Below are positions 1 through 23,489 of a stretch of DNA of 23,489 bases, piece by piece; positions within the stretch are counted from its first letter, which is position 1; every line of letters starts with the position of its first letter. The position numbers were made by a program, and so were the translations under genes. Under the pieces are notes generated by a model. It ran no database searches and was not told the origin of the DNA. It was given only the letters and a program-made list of their open reading frames with translations. Source of the DNA: a virus; the IMG/VR virus record IMGVR_UViG_3300035409_000007, positions 1-23,489 of that record; one strand, 5' to 3'.

Positions 1-747
1 CCTCCACACCGCATATGCATACTCCCTTATCTCGGCTTGTGCTTTGTCGGCTAGGCGCTCGTTGAGGAAGTGTGCCACAGCCGCCAGGCTTGCCGTCCAG
101 CGCCAGGTCAAGTAGAGGCTATAGGCGGGCAGGAACAGCCTGGCCTGCTCCGGCGCAATAACCTTGATTGCAGAGTGGTAGAGCCGAAGGCCCTCCTCAA
201 TGTATTGGACTAGGGCATCCATCCATCTGTCCTCGCAATCCACAGGCTCCTCTCCGCTTCCCTGTTTCCTGTTAGCTGGGGGGCTTCTCCACTTGCTGGG
301 AATGTAAAACTCTGGCTCGCTAGTCACGTATCGCCTGCTACTCTCATTGCGGGCGTACATCGGGTCATCAAACCCTGCATCATCGGTGTGGGTACTGCCG
401 ACCCGATACTTGAACCATTGTCGTGCCACCATGAGCGGTGCCTTCACCTCAAATGAGAGGATAGCGTGGCGGAATGGGGATGTCTCATATCGCCCAGCCA
501 GGAAACGTATCAGCCTCACATCCTTGTCCGTTAGCTCATACGACTCCTTAAGGAACGACACCCTTGCTGCGTTCACTACTGTCAGGTCGTTTTGCTCCAG
601 CCGCTCGACTAGCGCATCATGCGACCCACCCTCACTAATAATCTGGTACGCCTCACCCATTGCCCAGGGCATCCATGTCACCAGTCTCACGTACCCCTTG
701 TCCAGACACCTTATCTTTAGCTCCGTGTGTTCTTTCTTTTTCAACAT
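1..747 (-). CDS. thyX: Flavin-dependent thymidylate synthase, 3' end missing
   Basis: ThyX makes dTMP from dUMP using FAD, NADPH and methylenetetrahydrofolate, in the cytoplasm. The gene is open from an ATG at 747-745 to the left edge, giving 249 residues with the C-terminus cut off. Family landmarks appear in order: LDKGYV at 15-20, NAARVSF at 59-65, FEVKAPLMVARQWF at 99-112, KYRVGS at 113-118, NESSRRY at 134-140, FYIP at 147-150, and a C-terminal block with QARLFLP (201-207), HFLNERL (226-232) and AQAEI (236-240). By comparison with the Thermotoga enzyme, S137, R139 and R231 fall on the active-site serine and arginines. Two oddities: the usual RHR is KYR, and about 15 extra residues separate YRVGS from NESSRRY. 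The start is chosen because a promoter -10 box ends 7 nt upstream and no good ribosome site is present. An in-frame GTG eight codons upstream is a weaker alternative. It is divergent from the packaging genes, so it probably belongs to a separate nucleotide-metabolism block. Confidence 0.93.
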   Translation of the reverse strand, partial: MLKKKEHTELKIRCLDKGYVRLVTWMPWAMGEAYQIISEGGSHDALVERLEQNDLTVVNAARVSFLKESYELTDKDVRLIRFLAGRYETSPFRHAILSFEVKAPLMVARQWFKYRVGSTHTDDAGFDDPMYARNESSRRYVTSEPEFYIPSKWRSPPANRKQGSGEEPVDCEDRWMDALVQYIEEGLRLYHSAIKVIAPEQARLFLPAYSLYLTWRWTASLAAVAHFLNERLADKAQAEIREYAYAVWR

Positions 748-754
748 GGTTTCA

Positions 755-784
755 ATTTTATCACACCCCACTTCTCCCTGTCAA
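755..784 (-). promoter_or_regulatory. Sigma70-like promoter for thyX, leaderless layout
   Basis: Reading the minus strand, a perfect TTGACA (784-779) is followed after 18 nt by TAAAAT (760-755), five of six matches to the consensus. Only 7 nt separate TAAAAT from the thyX ATG at 747, so transcription would be expected to begin at or next to the start codon. The start is inferred from spacing. Confidence 0.7.
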
Positions 785-787
785 CCG

Positions 788-802: not shown

Positions 803-1138
803 ATGCCAAACGACCTAGCGAAAAGGCCAGTAGGCCGACCACCCACTGTCCAGGCTCAGGCCCTCGCATACGAAAAGACAGCTCGTCAAATACAGGCAGC
901 AGTAAGGGGGGCGCTTGGCACGATAGCAGAACGTTACCCAGACCTCCTAGACAAAGCCTTCGAGATTGCGCTGGGCGGAGACCGCTCCATGCTCAAGTTT
1001 CTAATCGAGCTGCCGACCCGATTCATGCCAGAGATGGCAGACGAGGACTCCCCATTTGCCAAGTTGGTTGAGCGAGTTACTCTCAGCCGCACCAGGACTG
1101 CTATACTCCCGCAGGCCCCAGATGAGGAGCAGGCGTGA
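803..1138 (+). CDS. terS: Putative terminase small subunit
   Basis: A 111-residue protein at the head of the packaging operon, overlapping the large terminase by 4 nt (GTGA). Small terminases bind the packaging site on phage DNA and regulate the large subunit. The N-terminus carries a basic AT-hook-like stretch (KRPVGRPPT, about residues 7-15) that could bind DNA. It is followed by helices with regular hydrophobic spacing (about 20-70) and an acidic to mixed C-terminal tail. The reading frame stays open upstream to 347, but that part lies opposite thyX. The ATG at 803 is chosen because it follows the -10 box directly. Function is inferred from size, position and the basic N-terminus; no catalytic motif is expected in this family. 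Confidence 0.65.
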   Translation: MPNDLAKRPVGRPPTVQAQALAYEKTARQIQAAVRGALGTIAERYPDLLDKAFEIALGGDRSMLKFLIELPTRFMPEMADEDSPFAKLVERVTLSRTRTAILPQAPDEEQA

Positions 1139-2580
1139 AGGTAGTGTGGCAGGACATCGCCTCTGAGGTACTTGGCACCCTTGGCATCACCCTGTCTGTG
1201 GAGCAAGCTGCTGCTTTCTGGTCTCCTGCACGTATTACACTTATTGGTGGGGGGGAAAGGGGTGGCAAGACCTTCATCTCCAGCCTCAAGGCCCTATGCT
1301 ACTCCATTGCACTTAGCCTGACCGGACAGCTACCAGAAGTGCTAGTATGGTTTGTGGGGGCAGAGTATAAGGATGCACGGGCATCCTGGGAATCACCAGA
1401 CCAACTTATCTCGTGGCTTCGTAAACTCGGTATGTTTAGCAGAGATACATTATCGATGCCCCAGGCCCGTGATGAGCCATGCTACCTCATTACCCGTGCG
1501 ATTACTATGCCGGACGGCAGGCGAGTCACCCCCATCCGCTTCGAGACTGTCAGTGGGCATGACCCCAGGGACATTGGGCGAGTCGAGCCGCACGTCATAA
1601 GCGGGGAGGAGCTGGGCCGCTGGCCCAAGGAACTTTGGGACAGATGTTATGGGAGGCTGGCTGCAAACTATGGTACTGCAATTGGTGTTTTTTCTGGCTC
1701 CTTCGAGTCTGACCAGCAGATGTTCGCTGAACTATTTGATATGGGTGCAGGCCCCAACACCCACGACATCCAATCCTTCCCCATGCCTAGCTGGGCAAAT
1801 CGCCAGAGGTATCCGGCAGGCCGACATGACCCCGCCATCGCTGACCTAGAATCAAGTATGTCACCCGAACGTTTCATGGAAAGGCATGGTGGGAGGCCCG
1901 CTCCTCCCACCGACAGCGTGTTCCCAGAGTTTCGTACCATCCTGCATGTGAGGCAGTGTGACATGGTGATGGGGGAGCCAGTCTACCTCGCCATCGACCC
2001 AGCAAAGTACGTCTATGCGGTGGAGTTTGTGCAGCCAGTAGGGGGAGAAGTCCATGTCCTCGACGAAGTATACCTTTACCAAACTACACACGAGCAAGTC
2101 ATTGCTGAAACGGTTAACCGTCCGTTGTGGCGATACGTGACTGGTGGAGTGATTGATTGTGCGGGGGAGCGCCACCCATTCGGTCTTATGAGTGCAGCGG
2201 AGGCATGGCGTCGTGACACCGGCCTCACCCTCTCCTCCCAATACCTAAAACTTGACCAAACGATAGAGCGTGTGCGAAGTACACTCAGCATCTCCCCCAT
2301 CACCCATCGGCCTCGTCTCGCCATCGCCCCGACCTGCCGTGGCATGATAGCTGAGTTTGGTGGGGGGCCGTCCCCCATCCCTCGTGGTGGGAGGTGGCGT
2401 ATGCAAGGGAAGACCCCTCGCACCGACAATTGCGATGCGGTGAAGGCACTAGGCTATCTACTCAGCCATCTCTACGGCACTCTGCGTCTCGACTTTCTCC
2501 CCGAACCAACTGAGCCAGTCACATACCTAACTCAGCGGCCCATGTCCCACCGCCAGGCCAACTATCGGAGCAAACCTTGA
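1135..2580 (+). CDS. terL: Terminase large subunit (packaging ATPase and nuclease)
   Basis: A 481-residue motor protein that docks on the portal, pumps DNA into the procapsid and cuts the concatemer. The N-terminal ATPase has a Walker A motif GGERGGKT (39-46) and a candidate Walker B with catalytic acids at HVISGEE (153-159). A coupling-type segment IGVFSGSF (183-190) follows. The C-terminal RNase H-like nuclease shows three acidic positions in the expected order: D288 in LAIDPAK, D341 in GVIDCAG, and D431 or D434 in DNCDAVKAL. The length is normal for the family. It starts with GTG, preceded by AGGAG (1125-1129, 5 nt spacing), and its start overlaps the stop of the small subunit gene, so translation is probably coupled. 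The Walker B is less hydrophobic than usual, but the remaining motifs make the call secure. Confidence 0.92.
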   Translation: MKVVWQDIASEVLGTLGITLSVEQAAAFWSPARITLIGGGERGGKTFISSLKALCYSIALSLTGQLPEVLVWFVGAEYKDARASWESPDQLISWLRKLGMFSRDTLSMPQARDEPCYLITRAITMPDGRRVTPIRFETVSGHDPRDIGRVEPHVISGEELGRWPKELWDRCYGRLAANYGTAIGVFSGSFESDQQMFAELFDMGAGPNTHDIQSFPMPSWANRQRYPAGRHDPAIADLESSMSPERFMERHGGRPAPPTDSVFPEFRTILHVRQCDMVMGEPVYLAIDPAKYVYAVEFVQPVGGEVHVLDEVYLYQTTHEQVIAETVNRPLWRYVTGGVIDCAGERHPFGLMSAAEAWRRDTGLTLSSQYLKLDQTIERVRSTLSISPITHRPRLAIAPTCRGMIAEFGGGPSPIPRGGRWRMQGKTPRTDNCDAVKALGYLLSHLYGTLRLDFLPEPTEPVTYLTQRPMSHRQANYRSKP

Positions 2581-4716: not shown

Positions 4717-6703
4717 ACCAGTCGCCCGCACGATTACCATACCTGCTGCTGAAATGCTGCGTGCGATAGACAAACGACTCCAATCGCTAGTCCGCCAGCC
4801 AGACGCAACTACGCCAGGTTCCCAGGCCAGCACCGAGATAGCACAGTTGCTAAGGGCGGAACTCGCATGGGAAGGCACACTACGGCCAGGCAACCCACGT
4901 CCACTTGCCATAGGCGACACGGCCAACTCCACTGTAACGTCCCAGCCATCACTCATTTCTCCTGCTGCTATAGCTGAGTTTGAGCAACGGGCCGCCGCAC
5001 TCGATGCGCTACTAGCCGCTTCAAGAGAAGGACAAATTGACCTGAGCAAGTACCAGGGAAATATCCGTCTGTCCGGTGCAACCGACACTCCAGATATAAG
5101 TATTGGTGGTAAGAGGACTGGACTTACCCTACGCCGTCAACCTTACGGTGAAGGAGATGCTGGAAAAGTTAGCCGCAGAGGTTATACCCAGTCAACGGGG
5201 CCAATAACTGGTAAGGTAGGGGCGTACCAGGTCAGTGGCACGACTACGCCTGTAGCAACAGGGCAATTAGTACCACCACCAATTCCAACGCCACCCAAAC
5301 CTTCCGCAACGCCACCAACGCCCAGGACGCCGCCACCTTCCACAACGCCGCCCTGGACGATGACGACGACGGCCATATCTACGTCAGACATTCCAACCTA
5401 CGATATGTTGAGGAGTTATGGGGTAGACGAGCAAACTGCTAGGCACTTAGCCAAGAATATGACACCAGAAAGGGCCGAAGAGTGGGCTATAGAATCAGGT
5501 TATTTAGGTTATGCTGGGGAAGGTCAACTTACTTCCAGCTCCTTCAATAAAACACCACCACTCGCTGAGTTAAAGGCGATATTGGATGCGGCAATGCAAT
5601 CCATTGAGCGTGGCCTACAGCTCGACGACCCCGAAATGCAACAGCGGCTCCAGCCTCTAGCCGACAGCCTTGGTATTCATCTCAATCTTATGCTCGCCCT
5701 GATTGGAGACCAGCCCGACCTATTTGCTGAGTATATCACCCGTGCAGTCGAGTTTGCAAACAGGGAAGGACTTCAGCTCGCAGCGGTGTTGGAAGGACAG
5801 GCCATCCAGCGAGAAATAAGTGAGGCACGTACTGAGGATGCACGCCTTGACCGAATAGCGAGACGTGAGGAGTTTTTAGCAAAGTTTGACCTGGACGAAC
5901 AGATATTTTCCACCCAAATAGAGCAATTCAACACCTCACTGGCTGAAAATATCAGGCAGTACGAAAAAACCTTTACAGAGAATGTGCGCCAATTCGAGGT
6001 GTCTGCTGGTTTCGAGGAGCGAAGACTAGACATTAGTGAGGCGGAGGAGGCCCGCAGCCGCTTCGCCTTCGAGCAGCGTACTCTCCCCATCAACCCCACC
6101 ACCATCGCTAGTCACAACTCGCTCTTGAGTCGCTATTTCTCCTGGCCTGGCCTGACTAGCGACCCTGACCAGCAGGTAGAGTGGGCCTACAACATCCTAC
6201 GGCTTGCTCCACCTCCCCCTCCCCCTGGTTTCAGTGTAGACCAATTCGGCAATTACACTCAGGTGCAGGGTGTGCGTGACCCAGCCCTCGAAGACCTAAT
6301 CCTCCGTCAACAAGTAGCGGTACAGCAATATGCGGTTCATAGGCAGCTCGCCGAGGCAATTGTAGCAGATGATAGACAATATCGGCTCGGCCAGCGAGAG
6401 TTGGAAGCTACACGAACTCAACTTCAGGCCGACCTTGCCACCAACCGTATTGACTCTGCCTTGGAACTCCAAATACGTGAGCACGAACTGCGCCAGCGTC
6501 AAGACGAAATACAAAATAAGCAGTGGTCGTTTAGTGTACTAGCCCTACTCCTGGCCAACCCACAAGCCTATAGTGTAGCAACAGAGCAAGGTATGCTTCC
6601 CATGATTCAACAGATAACAGGGCTAGACATCCCCCCGTTTGTCGGGTCTGGCATGGCTCCCCTTGACTTCCGACCCACATTCACCCGCCGAGGTAGAAGA
6701 TGA
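4697..6703 (+). CDS. Large coiled-coil, proline-rich virion-type protein (668 residues)
   Basis: I do not recognise a named family. Residues 1-115 are mixed and Ala-rich. Residues 192-219 form a Pro/Thr/Ser linker. Residues 235-268 (MLRSYGVDEQTARHLAKNM and following) look like a small three-helix, UBA-like unit. A long charged helix at about 355-460 carries repeated Gln, Glu and Arg heptads. A run of six prolines (505-510) separates it from a second long helix (about 527-610). The C-terminus is hydrophobic, then basic (TFTRRGRR). Coiled coils plus flexible linkers suit an internal head, ejected or portal-associated protein. It starts at ATG 4697 behind AGGAAG (5 nt spacing) and ends in an ATGA overlap with the giant gene, so the two are probably made together. 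Its role is inferred from architecture and position only. Confidence 0.72.
   Translation: MARLPTKPVARTITIPAAEMLRAIDKRLQSLVRQPDATTPGSQASTEIAQLLRAELAWEGTLRPGNPRPLAIGDTANSTVTSQPSLISPAAIAEFEQRAAALDALLAASREGQIDLSKYQGNIRLSGATDTPDISIGGKRTGLTLRRQPYGEGDAGKVSRRGYTQSTGPITGKVGAYQVSGTTTPVATGQLVPPPIPTPPKPSATPPTPRTPPPSTTPPWTMTTTAISTSDIPTYDMLRSYGVDEQTARHLAKNMTPERAEEWAIESGYLGYAGEGQLTSSSFNKTPPLAELKAILDAAMQSIERGLQLDDPEMQQRLQPLADSLGIHLNLMLALIGDQPDLFAEYITRAVEFANREGLQLAAVLEGQAIQREISEARTEDARLDRIARREEFLAKFDLDEQIFSTQIEQFNTSLAENIRQYEKTFTENVRQFEVSAGFEERRLDISEAEEARSRFAFEQRTLPINPTTIASHNSLLSRYFSWPGLTSDPDQQVEWAYNILRLAPPPPPPGFSVDQFGNYTQVQGVRDPALEDLILRQQVAVQQYAVHRQLAEAIVADDRQYRLGQRELEATRTQLQADLATNRIDSALELQIREHELRQRQDEIQNKQWSFSVLALLLANPQAYSVATEQGMLPMIQQITGLDIPPFVGSGMAPLDFRPTFTRRGRR
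5267..5356 (+). repeat. Low-complexity Pro/Thr-coding tract
   Basis: Imperfect repeats of ACGCC/CCACC type encode the flexible linker at residues 191-220 of the 668-residue protein. The repeat is at both DNA and protein level and stays in frame. It is best read as a linker, not a regulatory element. Confidence 0.6.
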
Positions 6704-9700
6704 TGCGCCTCCCCCCACTTCCAGCCGACATACTTCGACCCGACCCACAGCCCAAGCTTGATGCGCTAATGGAGCTGGGAGACGACCCTGACCTGTCTCC
6801 CAAAGACGCACTCTACCGCTTCATCAAGAAACCGAGCTTCAGGCGTGCCGAGGCATTTGGGAAGGCCTGGTTAGCCCGCATCACTTCACCCATTGGTCAG
6901 CAAGCCCGTGGAAGCTTGGAGGACATAGCTGACCTGGCCCGCCCGCTCAACCTCGTACCTGAGTTTCTAGCTGGAGTGATGGAGCTGAATAGGCGTGCCC
7001 CCTACCCTCAGCTAGTCCAACCCCCTCGCTTCTGGAACGACACTCAAAGCGAGAAGAGTGCTCAGGTCGTGCGCTCCTTGTTTCGTGGGCAGGTTGGCCC
7101 TGCCGAGGCATACCAACTGCTGACTGAGGGGTACGAGAAGCGCCCCATCTACCAGCAACTAGTTTATGGAGTAATCGACCCAACCAATCTCGTTCCGCTC
7201 ACCCTGCCAGGCAAGGTTATTGGGAAACTGACCACCACTGCTGGACGGCTCTTCCGTCCACTCAAGCCTAATACCAGGTATGCCTTTGGCCCCCAGCGCA
7301 TTGACAGCGACGGCTTGTTTGCCACGCCGAAGGGCTGGGAAAGTGTGGAGGGTAGGCCCAAGGACGTTGCCCCCCGTCTTGGGCCTATCGGCGCTAGTGG
7401 TGGGAAGTCTGGTATCCTACGTGAGCTAGACTATGCGTTAAAGGGGAAGATAATTAACCCAGATACCCACTCCCTTACCACTGAGTGGGTCAGGCTTATA
7501 CCCGACAAGTACCTTGCCCGTTTCAGGGTGGCGTTCCCAGAAACTTTAGACCCAGGAACGTTTGGTCGCTATTACGCAGATGTCAACCCGCTTGCAGTGG
7601 TGTCGGAAGCGGTAGTAAGGGCCAGGCCAGACCTCGCCCCCCGTACAATTATCCATGAAATATCCCACCACCTATCTCGCTTCATCCCCGAAGAAGATGT
7701 GATTGCGCTAAGAGAACAGTGGGCTAAAGACGTGGCCGACCACGGTATACGCCTGGTCAATGAAGCGAAAAGTGGTAAGCTGGTTGCTGCCGAGGGTATG
7801 GAAAGATTGATGCAGCTTTATCGGTTTACTGAACCATTTAATGAGTGGGTGGCTGAAGTGCTTACAGACAAAGCACTTGTATCCACTATTGCCCAACTGC
7901 CTGAATACAAGCCCTTCTTTCAGCAGATAATAGATATTATACGCCCACTCGCTATGGCAATGTATAACAGGTTAATGCGTACCGGAGAGGCCGACGCTGC
8001 CCAGAACGTATACGATTCCTTGCTGGCTGGGAAGTACCCAGATATACTAAGGCCAACTACACCATCAAGTGCGCTTGTCCAGCCCAACAGTGAGTTCCGG
8101 TTTGGTGGAGAGGTATTCCGTACTGGTAAAAGGGGTGAGTGGACTGGCCCACAACCTGGCATCCCCAATGTACGCCGAATGATACATGGGGAAATTCCTG
8201 CCACGGGCAAGCTAGCCTTTATTGAGCGGCTTGCCCTGGAAATGCGTAAGGGCAATATCGACCCAGACACCAGAGAGCTTGTAGGTGAATGGGTAAGCCT
8301 TGTCCCAGCCAAGTATTTAAGGAACCTAGCCACCTCGTTTCCCCAGGTAATACGACGAAAAGAACCAACAGCCGGTCTCTATACCACAGATGTAGGTGTA
8401 TCACCTGCATTAGTCCAGTACGCAGCAAGGTTTTTAGCGGCTAGTCCAGAGTTTGCAAATCGTACCCTGATTCACGAGGTTATGCACCATCTCAGCCGGT
8501 TTGTGCCCAAGAAGCAGGTTGATGCAATGCAGGCCCAGTGGCAAAAAGACCTGGCTGACAATGGCAAAAGGGTGATTGATGAGGCAAATAGGCTCAAAGG
8601 CCAGGTACGCTTCCTGACAAAAGAGGAAGAAGAGGCTGTAGAGCTTGCTTACCGATATGAGGGGGGTTTTGTTGAGTGGATAGCCGAGGTGCTGACTGAC
8701 AATGCTCTCGCTGCAATGATTATTGGGGAGATGCCAGGTTACAAACCCATATTTGCTAGGATTATAGATTTGGTGCGTCGCCTCGGCATGGGCATCTATA
8801 ATTTTCTGTTGCGTCGCAACCCAAATGCTGCTGCCAAAGTCTACCGTGAGCTTATTGCGGGAGAGTACCCAGCCATAGCAGGCCCGATACCAGGCATCGA
8901 CCTTGGTGTACCTACCCCATTCGCACCAGGACAGTTGGCCCGCTCCATCCCTGTCGAGCCAGACATTCAGGACATCCTTACCAACTCCATCCACTCCGCC
9001 CCTACATTCAAGCGCATATTTGACTGGCTAGGTGGCATGGGAGTTGTGAGGATTGGCCCCCGCACCCCTCTTCACCCCAGGCAACGCAACCTCGCTGGTC
9101 TGTTGACTGGGAAGGTCAGTATCGAGCTTGACTCAAGACGCCTATTTGAGCCGCTAGTGGACTTTGCGTTTGGGCGGGGTGTACTAGGTAGGCCAATCAA
9201 GAGGCTGGCCCAGGCCCTCCATCTCGCCTACAGCATTAGTCATGGACATGCCCGCCTGCTCCGCCTTAGCCTGGAGAGAGAGGCAGAACCCTTCCTCTCT
9301 CTCATCGGCGACGATGGACTAGTTAATGTGCGTGTGCTCTCACCCACCAGCCGAATCACAAGTAGGTGGCAGGCGGGATGGCAAGGTGTCGTATCTATAG
9401 ACGACCTGGCCCGCAGCCCTGGCGTCCTCCTCGAACTTAACCGTCAACAGCTAGTCCAGCATTATGACTTCGGCCCCAATCAAGGCGCAGTCCTTGACGC
9501 AATAGAGCGGCTACAGGATGCAGCAAATCAGATAATTACCCGTGTCGAGACTAGGACTGGCCAGACCTGGCTGCAACTAACAGGACATCAGAAGCAGCAT
9601 TACTTTCCTCGCCTGGTTGAGTCGCTTGCCGATACGTTTATACGGGGTAGAGAAGCTAGTCCCATCCCCATCCTCGACTATCAAAAACAGTTTGGTGCGG

Positions 9701-12294
9701 GAACTGGGGCGATGCGTGACCGTGAAATCCACGACTCGATTGAAGCGTGGATATACGATGTGCGCTACTTCAGCCCTATGGACGCACTCGAAGTATTCAT
9801 GGCGAGTGCGTATCGGTTTGCCGTGGACAGCCAGGCCGATGCGGTGCTAGCCCCCTTAGCAGTCAAAAACACTGCCCAGTCTGCATCAAAGCACTTCGAC
9901 GACATGACGCTCTATAACCAAGCAATCAATCAGCGAATAGCTGGAGCAAACTCGGCTGATATATTTGCCTCCTATCCTCAGTTTGCCAACGACCCATTGT
10001 TCCAGCGCATCGCAAACACTCCACCCACTCCCGATTTTTCCGCCCACATAAAGGGCCTGGTCGAGCTGGCACGTCAGCAAGTGGCCTACCTCAGTTCAAT
10101 ACGTCATAACACATTCGGCATGTCCAAACTCATCTTCGACGATGAGACGTATAAGGCTATTCGTACCACGCTAGAGGAGGAGAAACTACCATTCTACAAC
10201 GCCCTGCACGGCGTAAGCAGTACCTCCAACCTAGCTAAGTTTGCAATGACCGGACTCGACCCCAGTATCCTTCTCATCCAGGCAGTCCCGCTCATGGTTA
10301 CCAAGCCTGCCATATTTGCAAACGGTGCGCTAACCTGGTTTCGTAGCCTATTTGACTCACGCCTGGTTGACCAATTCCTCATCAATAATGCAGGGGAGGT
10401 GGAGGAGCTGTGGCGCTATGGTGGCGTACAACCTGGTGCGGACTGGAATGACTATCTTATCCGGCCTGGTCTAGTACAGAAAGTGGTGTCATGGCTTCCA
10501 GGTGCTCGTAATTTTGAGCGAGCCTACGCAGGCATGATGTTACAGGCACGAGTCCATCTCTGGGCATCCCTCAAACACCTCGCCAAGAACGAGTCCGACA
10601 AGTACGACATCGCCCAGTACATCAACAAAATTACTGGCTCCATTAACCCAGATGTGGCGGGAATGTCTCGCACCAACCGTATGATTGAAAATACGCTTGT
10701 GTCATTTGCGTATGGGTATAGGCGTGCTGTTGCGGCGCTCATACTCGACACGATGCAAGGTGGAATAAGGGGTAGTCTGGCCCGCACTACTATGATGCGA
10801 CTCATGGCAGCAGGCTTACTTACTGCGGCGGCCTCCTGGATGTGGTTGAAGGAGAAGGATACACCCGAAGATATGCAGGAAGTGCTAGCCTATCTCAGTA
10901 GCCCAAAACTCATGTCATTCCGAGTGGGCGACCAGCACATTGGCTGGGGTACTGCCTTCACCTCCCTCTTCCGTGCCTCCATCAACATTACCCGCCAATC
11001 CATCGAGCACCCCGACAAACTCCTGACACTTGACCCACGAGATAACCAGTTTGTTCGGTTCTGGAGGAGTCAGGCCCCCCCTATTCCATCCTACATCATG
11101 GACGTGATAAGGGGGCGCAACTATATTGGTGAACGTCTCGCTGACGAGGACAACAACCTATGGACAAAAGAATTTGCGCTCCATACACTCAAGCGCCTCA
11201 CCCCTATGGCAACCGAGTCGCTGTGGGAAGAAGGTTTCAGCCGTGGGTCATGGGTAACTTTTGTGGACTGGTTTGGACTTCGCAGCTTCCCAGTCAGCGA
11301 GTATGAGAGGCTGGCTGAGCTAAGGGCGGATGTACTGGCCCTGGACAATGCGCCACAGGTAGTTGCTTGGCGCAAGGCTAACCCAGAGGGGAAGTGGGCC
11401 GAGCTTCCCAAGCTCCTGCAAATCGACCTCACCAATCGCTATGCCACCCTTGACCAGCTAGACAGGAAGGTGGTTGCGGGTCGTGTCGAGACCGGCGACC
11501 AGGAACAACGGCTTCTAGGTGAGTTCCAGCAGGCTTTGCGTGCTCGTGACGACCAGATGCAGCCTTTTTATACTGGACTTGCCCAGGAGTGGACTAGTGG
11601 CACCATCGACTCCACCACCTTCCGTCAGCAGAAAAGCACACTAGACTCACAGCGTGCGGCGTTGACCGCCTCAATCTATCGTGACCCCAAGTTTACATCC
11701 ACACGACTCTTTCTGGACGAGGCGGCAGAGAAACGGGCTGCTGAAGGAGACACCTTTATCCTCGACCTGGCCTATGACCGCTACCAGCGTGACGTGGCAA
11801 ACAACCCAGTCATCCGACGGCCCAGTGGTATCCTCAACTCCTCTGTCTACAAGCGGCTGCTTAGTGATTTTCGTACCTTCTTTGGGGAAGAAACGTACAA
11901 GTATGTACGCTCCCGTCAGGCAGCTCAGCGCAACTTCCCTCCGCCCATCGCCTCGTTTGAGCTAGCACAGCAGGAATTGGAGCCGTACTGGGACTTGCAT
12001 AACAAGGTACTCTCTCCAGGCGACGCCTTGACCTTCGAGGAGTACCAAAGCTCCCCCGACTACATGCAAGACTGGCTGCTGAAAGCAAAGCCACGCCTGC
12101 GCTATCTTATCCGCCGTATGTCCAGAGAACGGGACAAGTACAAGCGTGCCCATTCTGCCCATGACTGGCTGCTAGTCAAGTGGTATGGGCACTCCCCACG
12201 TTCCCCTGCCAACCGTCGTAGACTATTGCAACTCACCCCTAATCAAGCTATAATAAATATAAGCGGAACCACCGATAGGGAGCTAACGCAGTGA
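6700..12294 (+). CDS. Giant polyvalent-type protein with duplicated HExxH metalloprotease-like domain
   Basis: An 1864-residue protein, the largest in the window. Residues 1-230 are helical with a hydrophobic stretch near 155-170. Two homologous units follow, residues 236-447 and 504-724. Each has HExxHH (H319-E320-H323; H592-E593-H596) and, 60-70 residues later, an EWxAEV motif (E382/E386; E659/E663) that could give the third zinc ligand, as in gluzincin-type peptidases. Residues about 1130-1500 resemble the C-terminal region of large polyvalent phage proteins (LPD38-like): a TGLDPS turn, a PGARNFERAYAG helix, and a membrane-like segment (1368-1383). The remainder is helical and charged. Such proteins are thought to be packaged in the virion and delivered with DNA, which would fit the slot between portal and scaffold. 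It begins with tandem ATG codons behind AGGTAGA. A peptidase role is inferred from motifs; targets are unknown. Confidence 0.75.
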   Translation: MMRLPPLPADILRPDPQPKLDALMELGDDPDLSPKDALYRFIKKPSFRRAEAFGKAWLARITSPIGQQARGSLEDIADLARPLNLVPEFLAGVMELNRRAPYPQLVQPPRFWNDTQSEKSAQVVRSLFRGQVGPAEAYQLLTEGYEKRPIYQQLVYGVIDPTNLVPLTLPGKVIGKLTTTAGRLFRPLKPNTRYAFGPQRIDSDGLFATPKGWESVEGRPKDVAPRLGPIGASGGKSGILRELDYALKGKIINPDTHSLTTEWVRLIPDKYLARFRVAFPETLDPGTFGRYYADVNPLAVVSEAVVRARPDLAPRTIIHEISHHLSRFIPEEDVIALREQWAKDVADHGIRLVNEAKSGKLVAAEGMERLMQLYRFTEPFNEWVAEVLTDKALVSTIAQLPEYKPFFQQIIDIIRPLAMAMYNRLMRTGEADAAQNVYDSLLAGKYPDILRPTTPSSALVQPNSEFRFGGEVFRTGKRGEWTGPQPGIPNVRRMIHGEIPATGKLAFIERLALEMRKGNIDPDTRELVGEWVSLVPAKYLRNLATSFPQVIRRKEPTAGLYTTDVGVSPALVQYAARFLAASPEFANRTLIHEVMHHLSRFVPKKQVDAMQAQWQKDLADNGKRVIDEANRLKGQVRFLTKEEEEAVELAYRYEGGFVEWIAEVLTDNALAAMIIGEMPGYKPIFARIIDLVRRLGMGIYNFLLRRNPNAAAKVYRELIAGEYPAIAGPIPGIDLGVPTPFAPGQLARSIPVEPDIQDILTNSIHSAPTFKRIFDWLGGMGVVRIGPRTPLHPRQRNLAGLLTGKVSIELDSRRLFEPLVDFAFGRGVLGRPIKRLAQALHLAYSISHGHARLLRLSLEREAEPFLSLIGDDGLVNVRVLSPTSRITSRWQAGWQGVVSIDDLARSPGVLLELNRQQLVQHYDFGPNQGAVLDAIERLQDAANQIITRVETRTGQTWLQLTGHQKQHYFPRLVESLADTFIRGREASPIPILDYQKQFGAGTGAMRDREIHDSIEAWIYDVRYFSPMDALEVFMASAYRFAVDSQADAVLAPLAVKNTAQSASKHFDDMTLYNQAINQRIAGANSADIFASYPQFANDPLFQRIANTPPTPDFSAHIKGLVELARQQVAYLSSIRHNTFGMSKLIFDDETYKAIRTTLEEEKLPFYNALHGVSSTSNLAKFAMTGLDPSILLIQAVPLMVTKPAIFANGALTWFRSLFDSRLVDQFLINNAGEVEELWRYGGVQPGADWNDYLIRPGLVQKVVSWLPGARNFERAYAGMMLQARVHLWASLKHLAKNESDKYDIAQYINKITGSINPDVAGMSRTNRMIENTLVSFAYGYRRAVAALILDTMQGGIRGSLARTTMMRLMAAGLLTAAASWMWLKEKDTPEDMQEVLAYLSSPKLMSFRVGDQHIGWGTAFTSLFRASINITRQSIEHPDKLLTLDPRDNQFVRFWRSQAPPIPSYIMDVIRGRNYIGERLADEDNNLWTKEFALHTLKRLTPMATESLWEEGFSRGSWVTFVDWFGLRSFPVSEYERLAELRADVLALDNAPQVVAWRKANPEGKWAELPKLLQIDLTNRYATLDQLDRKVVAGRVETGDQEQRLLGEFQQALRARDDQMQPFYTGLAQEWTSGTIDSTTFRQQKSTLDSQRAALTASIYRDPKFTSTRLFLDEAAEKRAAEGDTFILDLAYDRYQRDVANNPVIRRPSGILNSSVYKRLLSDFRTFFGEETYKYVRSRQAAQRNFPPPIASFELAQQELEPYWDLHNKVLSPGDALTFEEYQSSPDYMQDWLLKAKPRLRYLIRRMSRERDKYKRAHSAHDWLLVKWYGHSPRSPANRRRLLQLTPNQAIINISGTTDRELTQ
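7405..8040 (+). repeat. Metalloprotease-like unit, copy 1
   Basis: Encodes residues 236-447 of the giant protein. It shares order and motifs with copy 2: a basic helix, INPDT, EWVRLIPDKYL, RTIIHEISHHLSRFIP, NEWVAEVLTD, YKPFF and AGKYP. The copies differ throughout, so the duplication is old. Confidence 0.85.
8209..8871 (+). repeat. Metalloprotease-like unit, copy 2
   Basis: Encodes residues 504-724 of the giant protein. Matching landmarks are IDPDT, EWVSLVPAKYL, RTLIHEVMHHLSRFVP, VEWIAEVLTD, YKPIF and AGEYP. Both the zinc motif and the distal glutamates are kept, so both copies may be active. A few extra charged residues (LTKEEEE) lie between the motifs compared with copy 1. Confidence 0.85.
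12226..12254 (+). promoter_or_regulatory. Candidate internal promoter before scaffold and capsid genes
   Basis: TTGCAA (12226-12231, four of six matches to the -35 consensus), a 17-nt spacer and a perfect TATAAT (12249-12254) lie inside the last codons of the giant gene. Transcription would start near 12261, about 30 nt before the scaffold GTG, leaving room for its ribosome site. It could raise capsid and scaffold output above the upstream genes. Confidence 0.5.
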
Positions 12295-12905
12295 GCACCG
12301 AAACCATTCCCCTTGACGAGTACAAAAACTTACAACGCCAGAACGAAAAACTCCGCAAGGACTACGCACAGCTCCTCCAGGCCCATCTCGCCAATGAGGA
12401 GGTAAAGTCTGGCATGGAGAGAATAGAGAGGGGACTGGACGCATTTTTCGGTGCAGAAGTAGAGCACGGGTCACTAGACGACGCTAATGAGTTTAAGACC
12501 ACAGTTGCCGAGCTACGGACTCGCCGAGTTACAGACAAGCAGGCCGCAGCAGCCCAGAAACAAATAGCCGAGGTGTTGGCCCAGGCTGACGTGGACTGGT
12601 CAGATAACCGTCTTGAAACGACCCGAACTCTCTGGGACTCAGGTTCCTATGACCAAGCCGTGGCAAGCGCACGAGCCGCCCTGACCAGCCCATCTTCTGA
12701 GGAGATGAACGCTAGGGTCGAGGCAGAAATACGGCGCAGGATGGGTGAGGTGGGAAAGGTGGATACTGGGGATGGTGGGGGAAGTGATTACACCCCTACC
12801 ATTCCCGCAGACGTACTGAAGAAAAAGTTACAAGACCGCAACTTTGTCCGCCAGCATGGTAAGCAGGTCTGGGAAGATATAAAATCTGGCAAACTAAAGG
12901 TGTGA
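12291..12905 (+). CDS. Putative capsid scaffold protein
   Basis: A 204-residue charged protein lying 1 nt before the major capsid gene, the usual place for the scaffold that shapes the procapsid and is then removed. Residues 1-45 form a charged helix likely to be a coiled coil (EYKNLQRQNEKLRKDYAQLL). More helices run to about 155, then a Gly/Asp/Ser linker (GDGGGSDY). A basic C-terminal helix (KKKLQDRNFVRQHGK) fits the coat-binding end seen in P22- and phi29-type scaffolds. It starts with GTG overlapping the previous stop (GTGA), with AGGGAG at 12277-12282 and 8 nt spacing. No protease domain is visible, so this is a plain scaffold, not a protease fusion. Confidence 0.75.
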   Translation: MSTETIPLDEYKNLQRQNEKLRKDYAQLLQAHLANEEVKSGMERIERGLDAFFGAEVEHGSLDDANEFKTTVAELRTRRVTDKQAAAAQKQIAEVLAQADVDWSDNRLETTRTLWDSGSYDQAVASARAALTSPSSEEMNARVEAEIRRRMGEVGKVDTGDGGGSDYTPTIPADVLKKKLQDRNFVRQHGKQVWEDIKSGKLKV

Positions 12906-12906: not shown

Positions 12907-13785
12907 ATGCCGCTTACTGATACCGCAACTGTCAACGCAACCAACATCATCCCCGAAATATGGGGGATGAAAACCATCGACACACGAGAAGCATACCTGG
13001 TCATGCCTAACCTAATGGACAGGGACTACGAGAGTGAACTGAACTCTAGGTATGGTGGGGCTGGTGATAGTGTGCGTGTGTTTGGTGTGGACAACTTCGG
13101 TGCAGCCAACACCAAGACCATAGCCACAGACGCCACCCTCCTTACTACTGAAGGTGTATTCAATGCCGCCCTCAACATCCTGGTAGACCGGCACGCATAC
13201 ATGATGTTTGAGCTGGACTATGTGTTCGAGCTTCAAACACACATCCGAATGTTCGAGAAGCTAGCTAGCAAGGCTGGTTACGCTGTGGCTCTAGCAGTCG
13301 ATGACACCTGCGCTGGTCTCATCGACGACTTCTCTCAGACAGTTGGTGCGCTTGGCACGCCCCTCTCTGATGAGAACGTGCGGGATGCAGTACGTCAGCT
13401 TAACGAAGCCTTCGCACCGGAAGAGAACCGCTACCTTCTCTGCTCCCCCAACCAGCAACTCGAATTTTACAACATAGACAAGTACGTGAACACCTTGTAT
13501 AAGGAAGCCCTGGGGCAGTCCCTCGATACCCGAAAGTTCAAGGGCTACTTTGGCTCCCTCTACAACATGGACTGGTATATGAGCCAGAACGTTGAGGGAA
13601 GCACTGCCCTCGGCTTCGACAATGGCATGTGGCATAGAGAGGCCCTCGCCCTCATCATCCAGGACGACATGCGCTCCGCTGTCGAGTACAACATATTACA
13701 GGACTCCACTCGATTCGTTGTCCACGCAGTATATGGCACACTGGAGATGCGTGACAACCACGGCGTGTTTATGAGGGGTGCATAA
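12907..13785 (+). CDS. Major capsid protein (probably HK97 fold)
   Basis: A 292-residue protein directly after the scaffold. The N-terminus (NATNIIPEIWGMKTIDTREA) looks like the N-arm that starts many capsid proteins. A beta-rich stretch with GGAGDSVRVFGVDNF follows. Then comes a long helix of spine type (about 95-130, ELQTHIRMFEKLASKAGYAV), and an alpha/beta domain with RYLLCSPNQQLEF, LDTRKFKGYFGSLYNMDWYM, and strands near the end (STRFVVHAVYGTLEMRD). Length and order match the core HK97 coat fold without added domains. An AAAGGTG ribosome site lies just upstream. The fold is inferred from pattern and context, as no diagnostic motif exists. Confidence 0.82.
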   Translation: MPLTDTATVNATNIIPEIWGMKTIDTREAYLVMPNLMDRDYESELNSRYGGAGDSVRVFGVDNFGAANTKTIATDATLLTTEGVFNAALNILVDRHAYMMFELDYVFELQTHIRMFEKLASKAGYAVALAVDDTCAGLIDDFSQTVGALGTPLSDENVRDAVRQLNEAFAPEENRYLLCSPNQQLEFYNIDKYVNTLYKEALGQSLDTRKFKGYFGSLYNMDWYMSQNVEGSTALGFDNGMWHREALALIIQDDMRSAVEYNILQDSTRFVVHAVYGTLEMRDNHGVFMRGA

Positions 13786-14451: not shown

Positions 14452-14837
14452 ACGCCGCCACAATATGGCAGAGAGGTAATTTTACCGTGCCAATGGGATG
14501 TACTGGCCTGCGTCTTGCCCGTGCGACTGCCGATGCAAAGAACAAGTTCGCCCTCCACCTGGGTAAGCTGGGCCTCTCCGTGCTGCGTATGCTGGTCAGG
14601 CGTACACCCGCCTGGCAAGCCAGTTACCGCCCGTCCGTTGGGAAGCACGGCCACCCTCTCTACCTGCCAACGAGTCGTGGGATGCGCCCAGACCACCCAT
14701 TCTACGAACCCGACAAAGACCGCTACGTGATTGATGCGCTGTGTACACACCGACCAGTCACCCACAAAATCGAAACAGATGACCCAAAACTAATTGCTCA
14801 CGGGCTGGCCCGTGGATGGAGATGGATAGATGGTTAA
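14448..14837 (+). CDS. Protein of unknown function, 129 residues
   Basis: Starts in an ATGA overlap with the preceding gene and ends 8 nt inside the next, so it is part of the coupled chain. Residues 20-50 are helical and basic (KNKFALHLGKLGLSVLRMLV). The rest mixes Pro, His and Arg (HPLYLPTSRGMRPDHPFY) and ends in ARGWRWIDG. Size and place, between capsid and decoration genes, are where head-completion or connector proteins can lie, but no motif supports that. I do not recognise it. Confidence 0.65.
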   Translation: MNAATIWQRGNFTVPMGCTGLRLARATADAKNKFALHLGKLGLSVLRMLVRRTPAWQASYRPSVGKHGHPLYLPTSRGMRPDHPFYEPDKDRYVIDALCTHRPVTHKIETDDPKLIAHGLARGWRWIDG

Positions 14838-15621
14838 GCGCCTGCTCGTTGAGCCAACAGAAGAGTATCTGCGAAAGCACTACTCCAACGTTCAGACTCT
14901 CTCTGACTTCCTTGAACTATTTAGCATGGACGTGGCGACCTGGGAAGATGACTTCATGGGCGATGTCATACATGGTATGTACCAGGCTAGTATCTCCGGT
15001 ACTGGTGCAACCAACTTCGCTATAGAGGCGGGCACGGTCAACGGTATAGCTCGGCTAACATCCGGCACCACCGATGATGGACGGTCTGACTTCAGTCTCG
15101 GTCTGCACTTCCGTGGTGACCAGAACTGTGTAATGGCATGTAGGTTCCAACTCTCCGCAGTTACCACGGTAAAGCTAGAGGTTGGGTTTACTGATGTTAT
15201 CTCTGGTACGGATGCGGGAGCGGTGAACGTACTGACTACCCCCTCATTCACTGCAACTGACTGCGCTGTGTGGTGCATTGATACCGACCTTGACGCCAAC
15301 TATCGTGGGGCGAGCGTAGCAAACGGGGTTGCTGCAACCAACGTAGCCCCAGGCATCGGCCCTGTTGCCGCAACCTACGAAACGCTTATTGTTGCTCTAC
15401 TCGGCAACACTGCCGCCGACCCCGACTTGTGCGAGGCTTACTACCTCCGAGCAAATGCGGATGGTGCAATCACCTACAGGTCATCTCCCCAGCTCCTGGC
15501 CTGTCGGCCTACCGTCCTGCTAACTCCGTGGGTCTTCCTCCAGTCACGAGCCGTCTCAGCATCCCGAAACTGTGACATAGACTACCTGCGAGTGTGGCAA
15601 CGCCGCACCGCTACCTTATAG
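14830..15621 (+). CDS. Beta-rich virion protein with ConA-like lectin character (263 residues)
   Basis: Residues 1-45 are helical, with WEDDFMGDVIHGMYQ leading into a beta-rich body. Alternating strands (GLHFRGDQNCVMACRFQL, TVKLEVGFTDV) and the C-terminal strand CDIDYLRVWQRR recall the end of concanavalin-like and GH16-type jelly rolls. No catalytic glutamate motif of GH16 is seen, so it is more likely a binding or decoration domain. It starts 8 nt inside the preceding gene. It opens a block of four beta-rich proteins and a fibre-like protein. Role as capsid decoration or host-surface binding is inferred. Confidence 0.68.
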   Translation: MVKRLLVEPTEEYLRKHYSNVQTLSDFLELFSMDVATWEDDFMGDVIHGMYQASISGTGATNFAIEAGTVNGIARLTSGTTDDGRSDFSLGLHFRGDQNCVMACRFQLSAVTTVKLEVGFTDVISGTDAGAVNVLTTPSFTATDCAVWCIDTDLDANYRGASVANGVAATNVAPGIGPVAATYETLIVALLGNTAADPDLCEAYYLRANADGAITYRSSPQLLACRPTVLLTPWVFLQSRAVSASRNCDIDYLRVWQRRTATL

Positions 15622-15631: not shown

Positions 15632-16273
15632 ATGCCAGATGGAATAGTCCGCCAAGATACCCTACCTGCAAACAGTGAGGGTTCCACCCCTCAGTACCGG
15701 CTAAACAGACGTGCCGAGCTAGTCACCGCATCCATGTTTGACCAGTTCCTCTTCGATGGGAGGATGTTCTGTGCCGGTGACGCTGATGAAAATGACCTCG
15801 TTACTGGTCAGGCGACCTTTGCCGCCACTACCCCCACCTTCCTGCTAGAAGTGCCTTCCGGTACAACTGCCATGCCCCTCTGGGTGATACTCAGCCAGGC
15901 CGGAACTGTTGCGGGGGGCGTCATTGAGTGTGAAATATCCTTTGACCGTGTGGGAAGATTCTCAACAGGTGGCACCAGCGAGACCATAACCCACATGCAC
16001 ACAGGCCGTCCCAACTCTCCTGCCTGTCTGCTGTATAGTGGGGCCACTGCTGCCGCTGCCACCGACGCAAGGCGAATTTTCAGTGCCTTTCTTGACCAGG
16101 ATGTGACTGACCCGAACACTACAGAGTCGCTTTACTGGAGCGCAAAGCAAATGTGGGCACCGTTGTTGGTTGGCCCTGCCGCCTTCCTTGTCTTCACCGT
16201 TGGGGCTACAACTGGCCCAACCTGGGCATGGTCTATCGGCTGGCTTGAACTGCCTTCTGCATCGGCGGACTAA
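15632..16273 (+). CDS. Beta-rich putative virion surface protein (213 residues)
   Basis: Start ATG at 15632 is behind a GGAG ribosome site overlapping the end of the previous gene. The sequence is poor in charged residues and rich in Thr, Ala, Gly and Ser, with strands such as PTFLLEVPSGT, LWVILSQAGTVAG and VIECEISFDRVG, and a final WAWSIGWLEL. This composition is common in phage capsid decoration and spike proteins. No enzymatic motif is seen and the family is not recognised; the role is inferred from composition and neighbours. Confidence 0.65.
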   Translation: MPDGIVRQDTLPANSEGSTPQYRLNRRAELVTASMFDQFLFDGRMFCAGDADENDLVTGQATFAATTPTFLLEVPSGTTAMPLWVILSQAGTVAGGVIECEISFDRVGRFSTGGTSETITHMHTGRPNSPACLLYSGATAAAATDARRIFSAFLDQDVTDPNTTESLYWSAKQMWAPLLVGPAAFLVFTVGATTGPTWAWSIGWLELPSASAD

Positions 16274-19652: not shown

Positions 19653-19810
19653 AGGTCGTACAGCCCACCATCTCTCTTGCCGCAATAGCTGGCCTGGTTG
19701 TGCTAGAGATAGTGGCTATACGCTCAGGGATGGATGGTGTGCTATTTAGCGCAGTTGTTGCGCTGATTGGATTGATTGCGGGCGTAAACTTGAGAGGCAG
19801 GAATGGGTAG
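19649..19810 (+). CDS. Small membrane protein, two predicted spans (53 residues)
   Basis: Coupled by ATGA to the preceding membrane protein, and overlapping the next gene by 8 nt. Two hydrophobic helices, ISLAAIAGLVVLEIVAI (8-24) and VLFSAVVALIGLIAGV (31-46), are joined by a short loop RSGMDG and followed by a basic end (NLRGRNG). This hairpin form fits a class II holin, an antiholin or a small accessory membrane protein. It may act together with its neighbour. Confidence 0.62.
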   Translation: MKVVQPTISLAAIAGLVVLEIVAIRSGMDGVLFSAVVALIGLIAGVNLRGRNG

Positions 19811-21098
19811 GACTCGTGCACAGCTCCGTGACTCGGTGGTGAGGAAGTTGGGCCTCCCCCTCATCTCCGGCACCTCCAACTCATCCGGCAATACCACCAC
19901 GCTTCTCGACGACGATGACGTGCTGGCACGCTACGCAGACGATGCACTAATTGGGATGTGGTTGTATGATGAGGTGCCCAGCACCCCCGTCGACTCCGTA
20001 ATTACCGATTCGGCCCAGGCAACAGGGGTAACCTTCCGGCCCGCAGCAGCCGCGGCCCCTAACAGCGAGGCGTATGAGGTACTCCCTTTCTCTGCTTCCG
20101 CTATCCACTCTGCCATTGACGATACGCTACTTTATCTCTTTGATACTGGGCTGCTGGTGCGAGAGTTCTGGATTGGTGGAGTGACAGGCTCTCCCATCTA
20201 CAACTCAATGTTCGACTATTGGACTACCTCCACTGCCTGTCATGGCTGGACGAGTACCGGCTCAATGAACCGCCAGCAGGGTGCCGCAGTCAAATGGACT
20301 GGCGAGCAGGTGGCAAGGGTTGCCAACATCGGTGCGACGCACTCGCTTGACCCGACATGGCGGCGCTTCCTGACCGACCTTGCTGGACAGACCATTAGAT
20401 TGCGGGCTTGGTGCAATACTGCCACCGCATCAACCTTACGCATCCAAATTGTTGGTGCAGCCACAAGCTCATCACCCTACCACTCCGGCGATGGGGAGTG
20501 GGAAATGCTTGAGATACAAGCCACACTCGCCGTAACTGACCTGGACTGGATACCACGTATCACTACTGGTGACATTGCAACTCAGGACGTAGGGGAGATT
20601 TGGATTGACTCAGGGTACGTGCCTGCCGAGCACCCCATCCCCATCGCACTCATGCCTGGCGGCCCAACTGCCATCTATCTCTCTCACATGCCAGTCAACA
20701 TAACGGATAGGAAGGCAGAAGTACGCCCGTCAAGGCTACACCCCTGGCACCACTGGCGCTGGCAACGCTACCACGACCAGAACGCCGATGTGGAATTTGG
20801 TACAATTATTTGGACTGAGCGCCCACCCCCAGGTATGCGTATGTGGGTGATGGGTAGTGGCCCGCTTACCCTCCCCACCTCCACCACAACCATTGTCGAG
20901 GTGAATCAGAGTGAAGCCGAACTCATTGCGAACATGGTTGCACTGAGGCTACTTGAGTTGCAGATGGGTGCACTGCCCGCTTCTGGCAAGTCTGCTCTTG
21001 CCGACAGGATAGCCAGACTTCAGCGGGACGCATCCATACTGGCCGAGGGATTTGGTGCAAGGACAAGAACCGCATCGCTCCCTAGGCAGTGGCCCTAA
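19803..21098 (+). CDS. Head-tail adaptor-like protein with carbohydrate-binding-like insertion (431 residues)
   Basis: The N-terminal part (RTRAQLRDSVVRKLGLPL, 3-20; DDDDVLARYADDALI, 36-50) and the C-terminal helical part (SEAELIANMVALRLLELQMG, 370-389; KSALADRIARLQRDASILAE, 396-415) resemble helical adaptor proteins such as those following the portal in short-tailed phages. Between them, residues about 135-275 form a jelly-roll-like region (AVKWTGEQVARVANI, LAGQTIRLRAWCNTA, GDGEWEMLEIQATL, GEIWIDSGYV) of the kind found in CBM4_9-type carbohydrate-binding modules. It would sit at the tail side of the portal. It starts 8 nt inside the small membrane gene and is coupled to the next gene (TAATG). 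The adaptor call is by architecture and order, not by a decisive motif. Confidence 0.6.
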   Translation: MGRTRAQLRDSVVRKLGLPLISGTSNSSGNTTTLLDDDDVLARYADDALIGMWLYDEVPSTPVDSVITDSAQATGVTFRPAAAAAPNSEAYEVLPFSASAIHSAIDDTLLYLFDTGLLVREFWIGGVTGSPIYNSMFDYWTTSTACHGWTSTGSMNRQQGAAVKWTGEQVARVANIGATHSLDPTWRRFLTDLAGQTIRLRAWCNTATASTLRIQIVGAATSSSPYHSGDGEWEMLEIQATLAVTDLDWIPRITTGDIATQDVGEIWIDSGYVPAEHPIPIALMPGGPTAIYLSHMPVNITDRKAEVRPSRLHPWHHWRWQRYHDQNADVEFGTIIWTERPPPGMRMWVMGSGPLTLPTSTTTIVEVNQSEAELIANMVALRLLELQMGALPASGKSALADRIARLQRDASILAEGFGARTRTASLPRQWP

Positions 21099-23489
21099 TG
21101 GATGCTCTTTCATCCGCATACGACCTCACCCTGCAAGACCTATCCACTTCTCCCACCATCACGGTACAGCTAGTCCTCGCTGAAGATGAGGAGAGTGGCC
21201 AGAAGATGTTGGTAGAGCAGCGCCACCTGCCTGAGCCGAGTCAGGTCGAAGGGGAGGTGTCTACCCATCCTGACCCGCTCGTCGACCTGGTATGGAAGCA
21301 GGATGACTGGTCGGGTGGCTGTGGTCAACTCCGGTATGACCGAGAACATCCTAACCGCTACCTTGGATCATCCGGCATTGATGCGAGGGGAGCAAATGCA
21401 CTTGGCCCTTGGGTAGCCCGTTCCCCTATCAGCTTGTTTGTCCGAAATGGTAGTGCAGAGGATGGTACGAACGGCTGGACAGAAGAGAATGGTGCATCCT
21501 TAACCCAACAGACATCCGAAGCACAACAGGGCACATACGGCTTTCGTGTCACCGACTCTTCAGGTGCCCTCAATGATAGGTTATTCTCCCAAACCCTCAC
21601 CAACCCAACCGTTTATCAGAGCCGAGAAATTAGGGTCTACGCAAACTGTCGCAGGTCAGCGGGAGCCGAGGCAGGTATGCGTATCCTCATTAATGATGGG
21701 GTTAGTACGACACGCAGTACCTCCATCACTAACGCCGCCTTTACCACGGTCTCTGTAGTAGCAACTATCGGCGCAACTGCCACTGTGGTGCGTATCGGGT
21801 TTGACCTGGACGCCGCAATCACCACCACCCACACCTTCGCTATCGACTCGATAAAGGTGTTCCCTACTGGTGGAGTTGAGTGGTTTGGCACTACCTCGAT
21901 TATTCAAGCAACAGTGCGGGAATGGTATAGTGCATTTGGCCGTTGCTTATGTAAGTGGAATCGAACCACGTCAGTATACGAGGCAGTATACATCGACTCA
22001 GCGAACCCAATTACCGACATTCTTGGGTTCGATGGTAATATACTAATCGCATTTGGGAGTGCTGCACGCTACCGATTTGGAAGCGACACCACCTGGACTC
22101 AAGTTAATGTGGCCACTGGAGACTCACCCCGCCAGTTTGCCATTGGCCGTGATAATAATGGTGCACTTGCAGTCTGGCAGTCCACCGCAATCAACGATAC
22201 CCGATTGCACTACTCACTTGTTCCGGCCAACGCCACTCCAGGTTGGAGTGGTAATTTGGCGTGTGGCGATGACAGCCTGCTTGTCACCAACCTATTCTCT
22301 TTCCTCGACTCGGTGGTGGCAGGAAAGGAAGAAGGACTCTTCATCTACCGACAAGTGTGGCCCAATACCGGCACCGCCACCGGAGCGAACAGGATGTTCA
22401 ACCTACTGCCGGAGTGGGAAGGCTTACCCTCCTCCACCCACTGGCGGACAGGAGTGGCACACCAGGGCTGGCTCTACCTTGTGACTTCGGCTGGGTCTCT
22501 AGTCCGGTATGATGGGGCAGTATTTGAAGATTTAGCATACCTGTTCGATTGGGTAGGAGGGTTGCCTGGTGTTGGCGATAATATAGTCAACGCTGTCGGA
22601 GAACCAAACGGGAACATACGTGGGCTAGTGAGTGACCTGACTACTCTCTGGCTTCTAGTCGATTCACTTGAACAGGGCGACACCACTGCTAGACCAGCCA
22701 ACCTCTTCACCCTTACCGAGTCCGACGACGAATTTATACTACACCAGGTCGAGAATAGCGGTCTGGTTACTGTGGCGGAGAGCTTCGCTCCTCTAGGAAT
22801 TACCGAGGCAGACGGCCTGGCCCTGGTGGATGGGTCGATTCATGTCTATGTGCGTAGGTTTGCGCTTACCCCAACTAATAATGTAGAGAATTTTAGTAGA
22901 TACCCATTGCCTATCGGGTCTATGTTCCCCTACATGGACGGGAGCAACGTCACAGTAACCATCACCGACCAGGGCCTGGTCACTTCGGTGTGGGATGCAG
23001 GACTACCCAGCGAGGACAAGGCGTTCCTGTGGCTTGACTTTTGGACTCGTGGCACTAGCGATGCATCCAGTCGTAACCTGACAGTCGAGTTTTCGATTGA
23101 CGGAGGGGCGTGGACAACCCTTGGTTCTACCAACACCAGTGCAGCTACCATACCAGTCTTACGCACCCTTTCTTTCAATGACGTGGCTAGCCCCACTACT
23201 GCTGCGGTAGGTGGACAAATCGCATTTCGATTCAGCACTAGCGGCATCGGCGCTGCGACCCGCCGACTCATCCTCTCCTTCGAGCTTCATGCGGCAATAA
23301 GGCCACTGCGCTTTAGGCAGTGGGACTTAACTGCGGAGGTGGGGCCAGAAGTGCTTTTACGCAACGGCACCTTCGACCCTCAATCCCGCACCACAGTGCT
23401 GTCTCGCCTCTCCACCCTAGAGCAGCAAGTCTACCCAATTACTCTAATCCAGGACTGGGATGAAGACGGCACCACCACCTCTATTCCAG
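21098..23489 (+). CDS. Large beta-rich tail protein, 3' end missing
   Basis: Starts at ATG 21098 (TAATG with the adaptor stop) and stays open for 797 codons to the right edge. Residues 1-110 are mixed (ITVQLVLAEDEESG, WSGGCGQLRYDR). Residues about 114-258 form a second carbohydrate-binding-like jelly roll (NGWTEENGASLTQQTSEA, YGFRVTD, IDSIKVFP). From about 280 to 620 short strands recur in blade-like fashion (ITDILGFDGNILIAFGSA, WLYLVTSAGSLVRYDG, GLALVDGSIHVYVRR), suggesting a beta-propeller. A further beta domain follows, and the last part (LLRNGTFDPQSR) resembles ends of tail-hub-type proteins. Nozzle proteins of short-tailed phages are of similar size and contain a propeller. A hub or tip protein of a long-tailed phage is the alternative. 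Confidence 0.65.
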   Translation, partial: MDALSSAYDLTLQDLSTSPTITVQLVLAEDEESGQKMLVEQRHLPEPSQVEGEVSTHPDPLVDLVWKQDDWSGGCGQLRYDREHPNRYLGSSGIDARGANALGPWVARSPISLFVRNGSAEDGTNGWTEENGASLTQQTSEAQQGTYGFRVTDSSGALNDRLFSQTLTNPTVYQSREIRVYANCRRSAGAEAGMRILINDGVSTTRSTSITNAAFTTVSVVATIGATATVVRIGFDLDAAITTTHTFAIDSIKVFPTGGVEWFGTTSIIQATVREWYSAFGRCLCKWNRTTSVYEAVYIDSANPITDILGFDGNILIAFGSAARYRFGSDTTWTQVNVATGDSPRQFAIGRDNNGALAVWQSTAINDTRLHYSLVPANATPGWSGNLACGDDSLLVTNLFSFLDSVVAGKEEGLFIYRQVWPNTGTATGANRMFNLLPEWEGLPSSTHWRTGVAHQGWLYLVTSAGSLVRYDGAVFEDLAYLFDWVGGLPGVGDNIVNAVGEPNGNIRGLVSDLTTLWLLVDSLEQGDTTARPANLFTLTESDDEFILHQVENSGLVTVAESFAPLGITEADGLALVDGSIHVYVRRFALTPTNNVENFSRYPLPIGSMFPYMDGSNVTVTITDQGLVTSVWDAGLPSEDKAFLWLDFWTRGTSDASSRNLTVEFSIDGGAWTTLGSTNTSAATIPVLRTLSFNDVASPTTAAVGGQIAFRFSTSGIGAATRRLILSFELHAAIRPLRFRQWDLTAEVGPEVLLRNGTFDPQSRTTVLSRLSTLEQQVYPITLIQDWDEDGTTTSIP

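Follow-up and report, generated by a model that had tools for sequence, protein, structure and literature searches.

The 23,489-base stretch of viral DNA analysed here as a whole (the window) is nearly empty of at least six palindromic words, among them GATC, CGCG, GGWCC, CCSGG, GRGCYC and CYCGRG, and these sites were very probably removed by selection from host Type II restriction. The elimination, the exact limits of the lost words, the synonymous mechanism of the loss and the absence of different Type II sites from related phages can all be read directly from the DNA. Restriction escape is the best explanation of the pattern because the loss is near-total, specific to palindromes, bounded as Type II sites are bounded and synonymous, and because relatives are without different sites.

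The window is a complete virus record, holds the structural half of a phage only, and probably represents part of a larger genome. Judging from its terminase and major capsid families and from its capsid relatives, its source is an uncultured double-stranded DNA tailed phage. It contains terminase, portal, capsid and tail genes, the last of which runs past the right end. The features used below are as follows (percentages are identities).

1135..2580, plus strand: terminase large subunit (phrog_2, E 2e-8; 22-27% to Microbacterium and Arthrobacter phage terminases)
2577..4343, plus strand: probable portal protein, named from its position after the terminase (34% over 531 aa to L079; no PHROG match)
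6700..12294, plus strand: 1864-aa protein (about 600 aa at 25% to L078, L116, L081 and others, the C-terminal part being kept in relatives; no Pfam or PHROG match)
12291..12905, plus strand: probable scaffolding protein, from its position before the capsid gene (28-30% to the gene in the same position in about 20 IMG/VR relatives)
12907..13785, plus strand: major capsid protein (phrog_267, E 4e-14; PDB 8e16 major capsid protein, E 5e-4; 36-42% to IMG/VR relatives)
14830..15621, plus strand: unnamed protein conserved in the phage group (31-44% to L079, L081-L084, L090, L113-L116, L118, L119, L121, L123 and L125)
19803..21098, plus strand: tail-region gene in common with L079 (32% over 440 aa), with a weak match in Chloroflexota locus L152
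20051..20054, no strand: the sole CGCG, from the site count
21089..23488, plus strand: tail protein, open at its 3' end at the right end of the window (28% over 820 aa to L079)
21366..21369, no strand: the sole GATC, in GGA TCA (Gly-Ser) of the right-hand tail gene (1 TCN serine codon after an xGA codon)

The 1864-aa protein probably belongs to the virion, either associated with the head or injected. It carries two similar segments, HEISHHLSRF and HEVMHHLSRF, which are suggestive of a duplicated zinc-metallopeptidase-like motif of the HExxH type. A megablast search of the window against phages gave no match, searches of viral contigs with the terminase, the 1864-aa protein and the right-hand tail protein gave none, and neither did a genome scan with the capsid protein as query.

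GATC occurs once in the window, where an order-2 Markov model expects 61 copies (Poisson p ~2e-25). In 300 codon shuffles of the 21,651 coding bases, with protein sequences and codon usage unchanged, 68.8 +/- 6.6 copies were produced (range 51-87), against the one observed. The first-pass annotation had reported a single GATC at 21366-21369, and the exact count and position agree. Its expectation of about 92 copies, from equal base use, was somewhat high, but the depletion is real and the avoidance it proposed stands against the order-2 model. Its reading of the loss as restriction escape is supported and was incomplete, as at least five further sites were lost along with GATC, and these were overlooked.

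Those five sites came from a palindrome scan of positions 1 to 23489. Their observed/expected counts are 1/66 for CGCG, 0/65 for GGWCC, 0/38 for CCSGG, 0/32 for GRGCYC and 0/25 for CYCGRG, and the means of the codon shuffles are 83.9, 52.9, 41.5, 22.6 and 22.6 respectively. With z values of -5 to -11 in the shuffles, the depletion of all six sites is unexplained by protein sequence or codon usage. At a ratio < 0.1 and an expectation > 15, six sites are eliminated, with ratios of 0 to 0.016. Another four words, of six bases each, occur nowhere in the window, CTGCAG (0/12), CCATGG (0/14), CAGCTG (0/11) and GGTACC (0/10), and no firm claim is made for any of them singly because their expectations are too small.

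Control sites are near expectation: GGCC 149/159, CTAG 87/83, GANTC 75/84, CCWGG 125/102 and GGSCC 85/76. The earlier statement that other palindromes are plentiful thus holds for GGCC and CTAG; GCGC (71/91) and CATG (82/117) are mildly low, and CCGG falls short (46/79) through the loss of those copies that form part of CCSGG. The limits of the losses are sharp. GGACC and GGTCC are absent, and GGGCC and GGCCC are present; CCCGG and CCGGG are at zero, and CCAGG (59/50) and CCTGG (66/52) are retained. All four words of GRGCYC and all four of CYCGRG are at zero, and the one-letter neighbours GAGCAC (6/8) and CACGAG (8/7) are kept. The lost words therefore carry the degeneracy of Type II enzymes themselves: GGWCC and not GGSCC, CCSGG and not CCWGG, GRGCYC and CYCGRG complete. 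The corresponding specificities are MboI/DpnII for GATC, FnuDII/BstUI for CGCG, AvaII/SinI for GGWCC, NciI/BcnI for CCSGG, BanII/HgiJII for GRGCYC and AvaI for CYCGRG.

The sites were lost at synonymous positions, so that the encoded proteins stay intact and codon choice steers clear of the avoided words. The GAT/GAC counts for aspartate are 0/100 before a codon starting with C and 127/203 elsewhere (Fisher p 3e-18), and isoleucine is written ATC in 0 of 52 cases after a codon ending in G and in 144 of 318 elsewhere. These counts bear out the earlier observations that GAT codons never precede C and that ATC codons never follow G. GAT and ATC are each frequent apart from GATC, as had also been noted.

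Relatives were collected as IMG/VR contigs found by scans with the capsid and scaffold proteins; several are presumably marine, to go by their dataset numbers. One of them, L079 (35.8 kb), has counterparts, at 28-41% identity, of the window's portal, capsid and four more genes that lie rightward of the capsid. Six others belong to the phage group of the window by capsid (35-37%) or scaffold: G506 (L090), G508 (L120), G512 (L122), L080, L081 and L112. Like the window, all six have both GATC and GGWCC at zero, with GATC at 0/66, 0/38, 0/29, 0/15, 0/19 and 0/16 respectively. In most of the six the pattern of the window is inverted, with CCWGG lost and CCSGG no scarcer than expected, and CGCG is lost in only part of them. 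G506, for example, has CCWGG 0/49, GGWCC 0/30 and CCSGG present at 42/21, and G508 has CGCG 0/27. L080 resembles the window, with CCWGG present and CCSGG at 0/4 (a small expectation). The most syntenic relative, G505, has normal GATC and GGCC at 0/69, and G507 has GATC present with RGATCY at 0/49 and CCWGG at 0/57. Relatives thus switch between overlapping Type II sites, and a changing restriction pressure therefore fits better than an inherited composition.

Two of the IMG/VR contigs showed further features. G507 (IMGVR_UViG_3300025131_000111, L158/L159, 40.6 kb) has two head modules: a capsid from the same family as the window's lies at 37377-38240, and a second capsid lies with portal and terminase at 9.9-15.8 kb. 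It also carries a phrog_842 glucosyltransferase. GGCC is at 0 in its first 30 kb and at 15/24 in its last 10 kb. Together with the two head modules this split indicates a recombinant or a chimeric assembly, with the avoidance profile marking the junction. In contig L098, GANTC is at 1/45 and most four-base sites are much less affected; GANTC is usually tied to CcrM-type methylation.

Phages are known to counter restriction by eliminating sites, as defined by a ratio < 0.1 at an expectation > 15 (Rusinov et al. 2018, PMC6286503). Sites have been lost entirely or almost so in about 10% of viral genomes; the systems concerned are chiefly orthodox Type II and the phages chiefly non-temperate (PMC6286503). 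The window is like those cases in ratio and expectation, in the palindromic orthodox Type II nature of its sites and in being from a double-stranded DNA tailed phage; the expectations used here come from the order-2 Markov model and those of PMC6286503 from the Burge formula. It is unlike them in losing six independent sites at once within 23.5 kb, four of them to zero. In a small benchmark (expectation > 15, ratio < 0.1, nested words removed) the window had 6 eliminated sites, G506 had 6, T7 had 4, a Nodularia phage stretch had 3, lambda had 0 and most other stretches had 0 or 1. T7, by the same count, has GATC 6/141, CCWGG 2/83, GRGCYC 1/27 and YGGCCR 2/25. The two unrelated phages both eliminate GATC and GRGCYC, but T7 eliminates four sites against six, has no site at exactly zero in its full genome, and eliminates CCWGG, which the window keeps while losing CCSGG. 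The Nodularia phage vB_NpeS-2AV2 (first 25 kb; cyanobacterial host, GC 40%) has GGWCC at 0/20, as in the window, and its other two sites are GWGCWC and CMGCKG. The strategy is thus already known, and what is unusual is how many sites are gone together, at the extreme end of this small benchmark.

Hints about the host come from Chloroflexota, in the form of a spacer and capsid homologues. The spacer match is:

16208..16244, minus strand: protospacer-like match to a spacer of Chloroflexia genome G046, 31/37 bases

The spacer was found by a search of 158 Chloroflexia genomes and lies in array L067 (G046:C15:128000-143575), which has 182 CRISPR repeats, GTTTTAATCCCCTTCCGAGGATTTTGGTTATTTGAAT. In frame, the match reads STRPTGAWSLGW against TTGPTWAWSIGW, with a BLOSUM score of 52, and the best of 905 shuffles scored 38. 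Of the short DNA matches to Chloroflexota that were inspected for CRISPR arrays, the G046 match alone fell inside one. Matches of G047 and G044 near 16208-16244 look like chance, with no homologues of the window nearby. Of 400 Chloroflexota genomes, 31 contain a homologue of the capsid, and in one of the 31 (L152) two tail-region genes are matched weakly as well. The link to Chloroflexota is suggestive only, because the spacer came from a 158-genome search within this one phylum and no close relative of the window was found in any Chloroflexota genome searched. As a point against the restriction reading, of the 158 genomes of Chloroflexia, the one lineage hinted at, just 1 has the DpnII (GATC) enzyme family and 5 have the SinI (GGWCC) family.

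A Chloroflexus host as such, an idea drawn from the specificities of CauI, CauII, CauIII and CauB3I, is unsupported: Chloroflexales avoid GGWCC and GRGCYC, and not GATC or CGCG. In Chloroflexales chromosomes (L006-L031), whose DNA was retrieved with a chlorosome protein query, GGWCC and GRGCYC are scarce in most genomes sampled. CCWGG is scarce in several Chloroflexus loci (L006, L008, L009 and L010), with 1-2 copies against 31-45 expected.

The phage might instead mirror the word usage of a host whose genome is itself without these words. Low GGWCC and GRGCYC in Chloroflexales chromosomes (6/23 and 2/25 in L006, for example) could explain part of the pattern in this way, but the same chromosomes are normal in GATC (158/159) and only mildly low in CGCG (235/306). 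None of the 26 Chloroflexales loci has more than two eliminated sites (range 0-2), whereas the phage losses are total at six, and the sets of lost sites differ among the phage relatives. We consider such mirroring unlikely. Loss by mutation, in which methylated cytosines deaminate and sites decay without selection, is hardly credible. TGCG, among the words that deamination makes from CGCG, is in excess (117/81), but the aspartate codons before C are all GAC, a T-to-C change relative to GAT and so in the wrong direction. The main excess words are GATG and CATC and not GATT and AATC, and deamination would leave residual sites where four are exactly zero.

It is equally hard to credit that the phage, or its missing half, encodes site-specific endonucleases against host DNA and avoids their sites to protect itself. 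The early half of the genome lies outside the window and could hold such genes, but six specificities would be needed, and each relative with other missing sites would need other enzymes. In ten proteins from non-structural parts of relatives, a partial coverage, Pfam found no endonuclease. A wider version, in which the whole phage group carries a changing set of nucleases against host DNA and the avoidance profile is a self-protection code and not a mark of host defence, is very improbable, if slightly less so.

Under host restriction, the favoured reading, the phage would have been under strong selection against Type II enzymes. GATC, CGCG, GGWCC, CCSGG, GRGCYC and CYCGRG would have been removed by mostly synonymous substitutions, leaving the cognate enzymes nothing to cut. 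We infer that the enzymes belonged to hosts and that several acted jointly, whether spread over the hosts that the phage can infect or gathered in a single heavily defended one; the phage would be mainly virulent. The window has no integrase, which in a structural half carries no weight as to lifestyle. No C5 methyltransferase was found in the window, and a phage methyltransferase or antirestriction gene may lie in the half of the genome outside it.

The window is a clean example of selection on synonymous codons, and its set of missing sites would be a record of the restriction enzymes that an uncultured phage has met. The set differs among relatives (GATC or RGATCY, CCWGG or CCSGG, GGCC, CGCG), and therefore it could assist host prediction and the tracking of host shifts in environmental phages whose hosts have still to be found.
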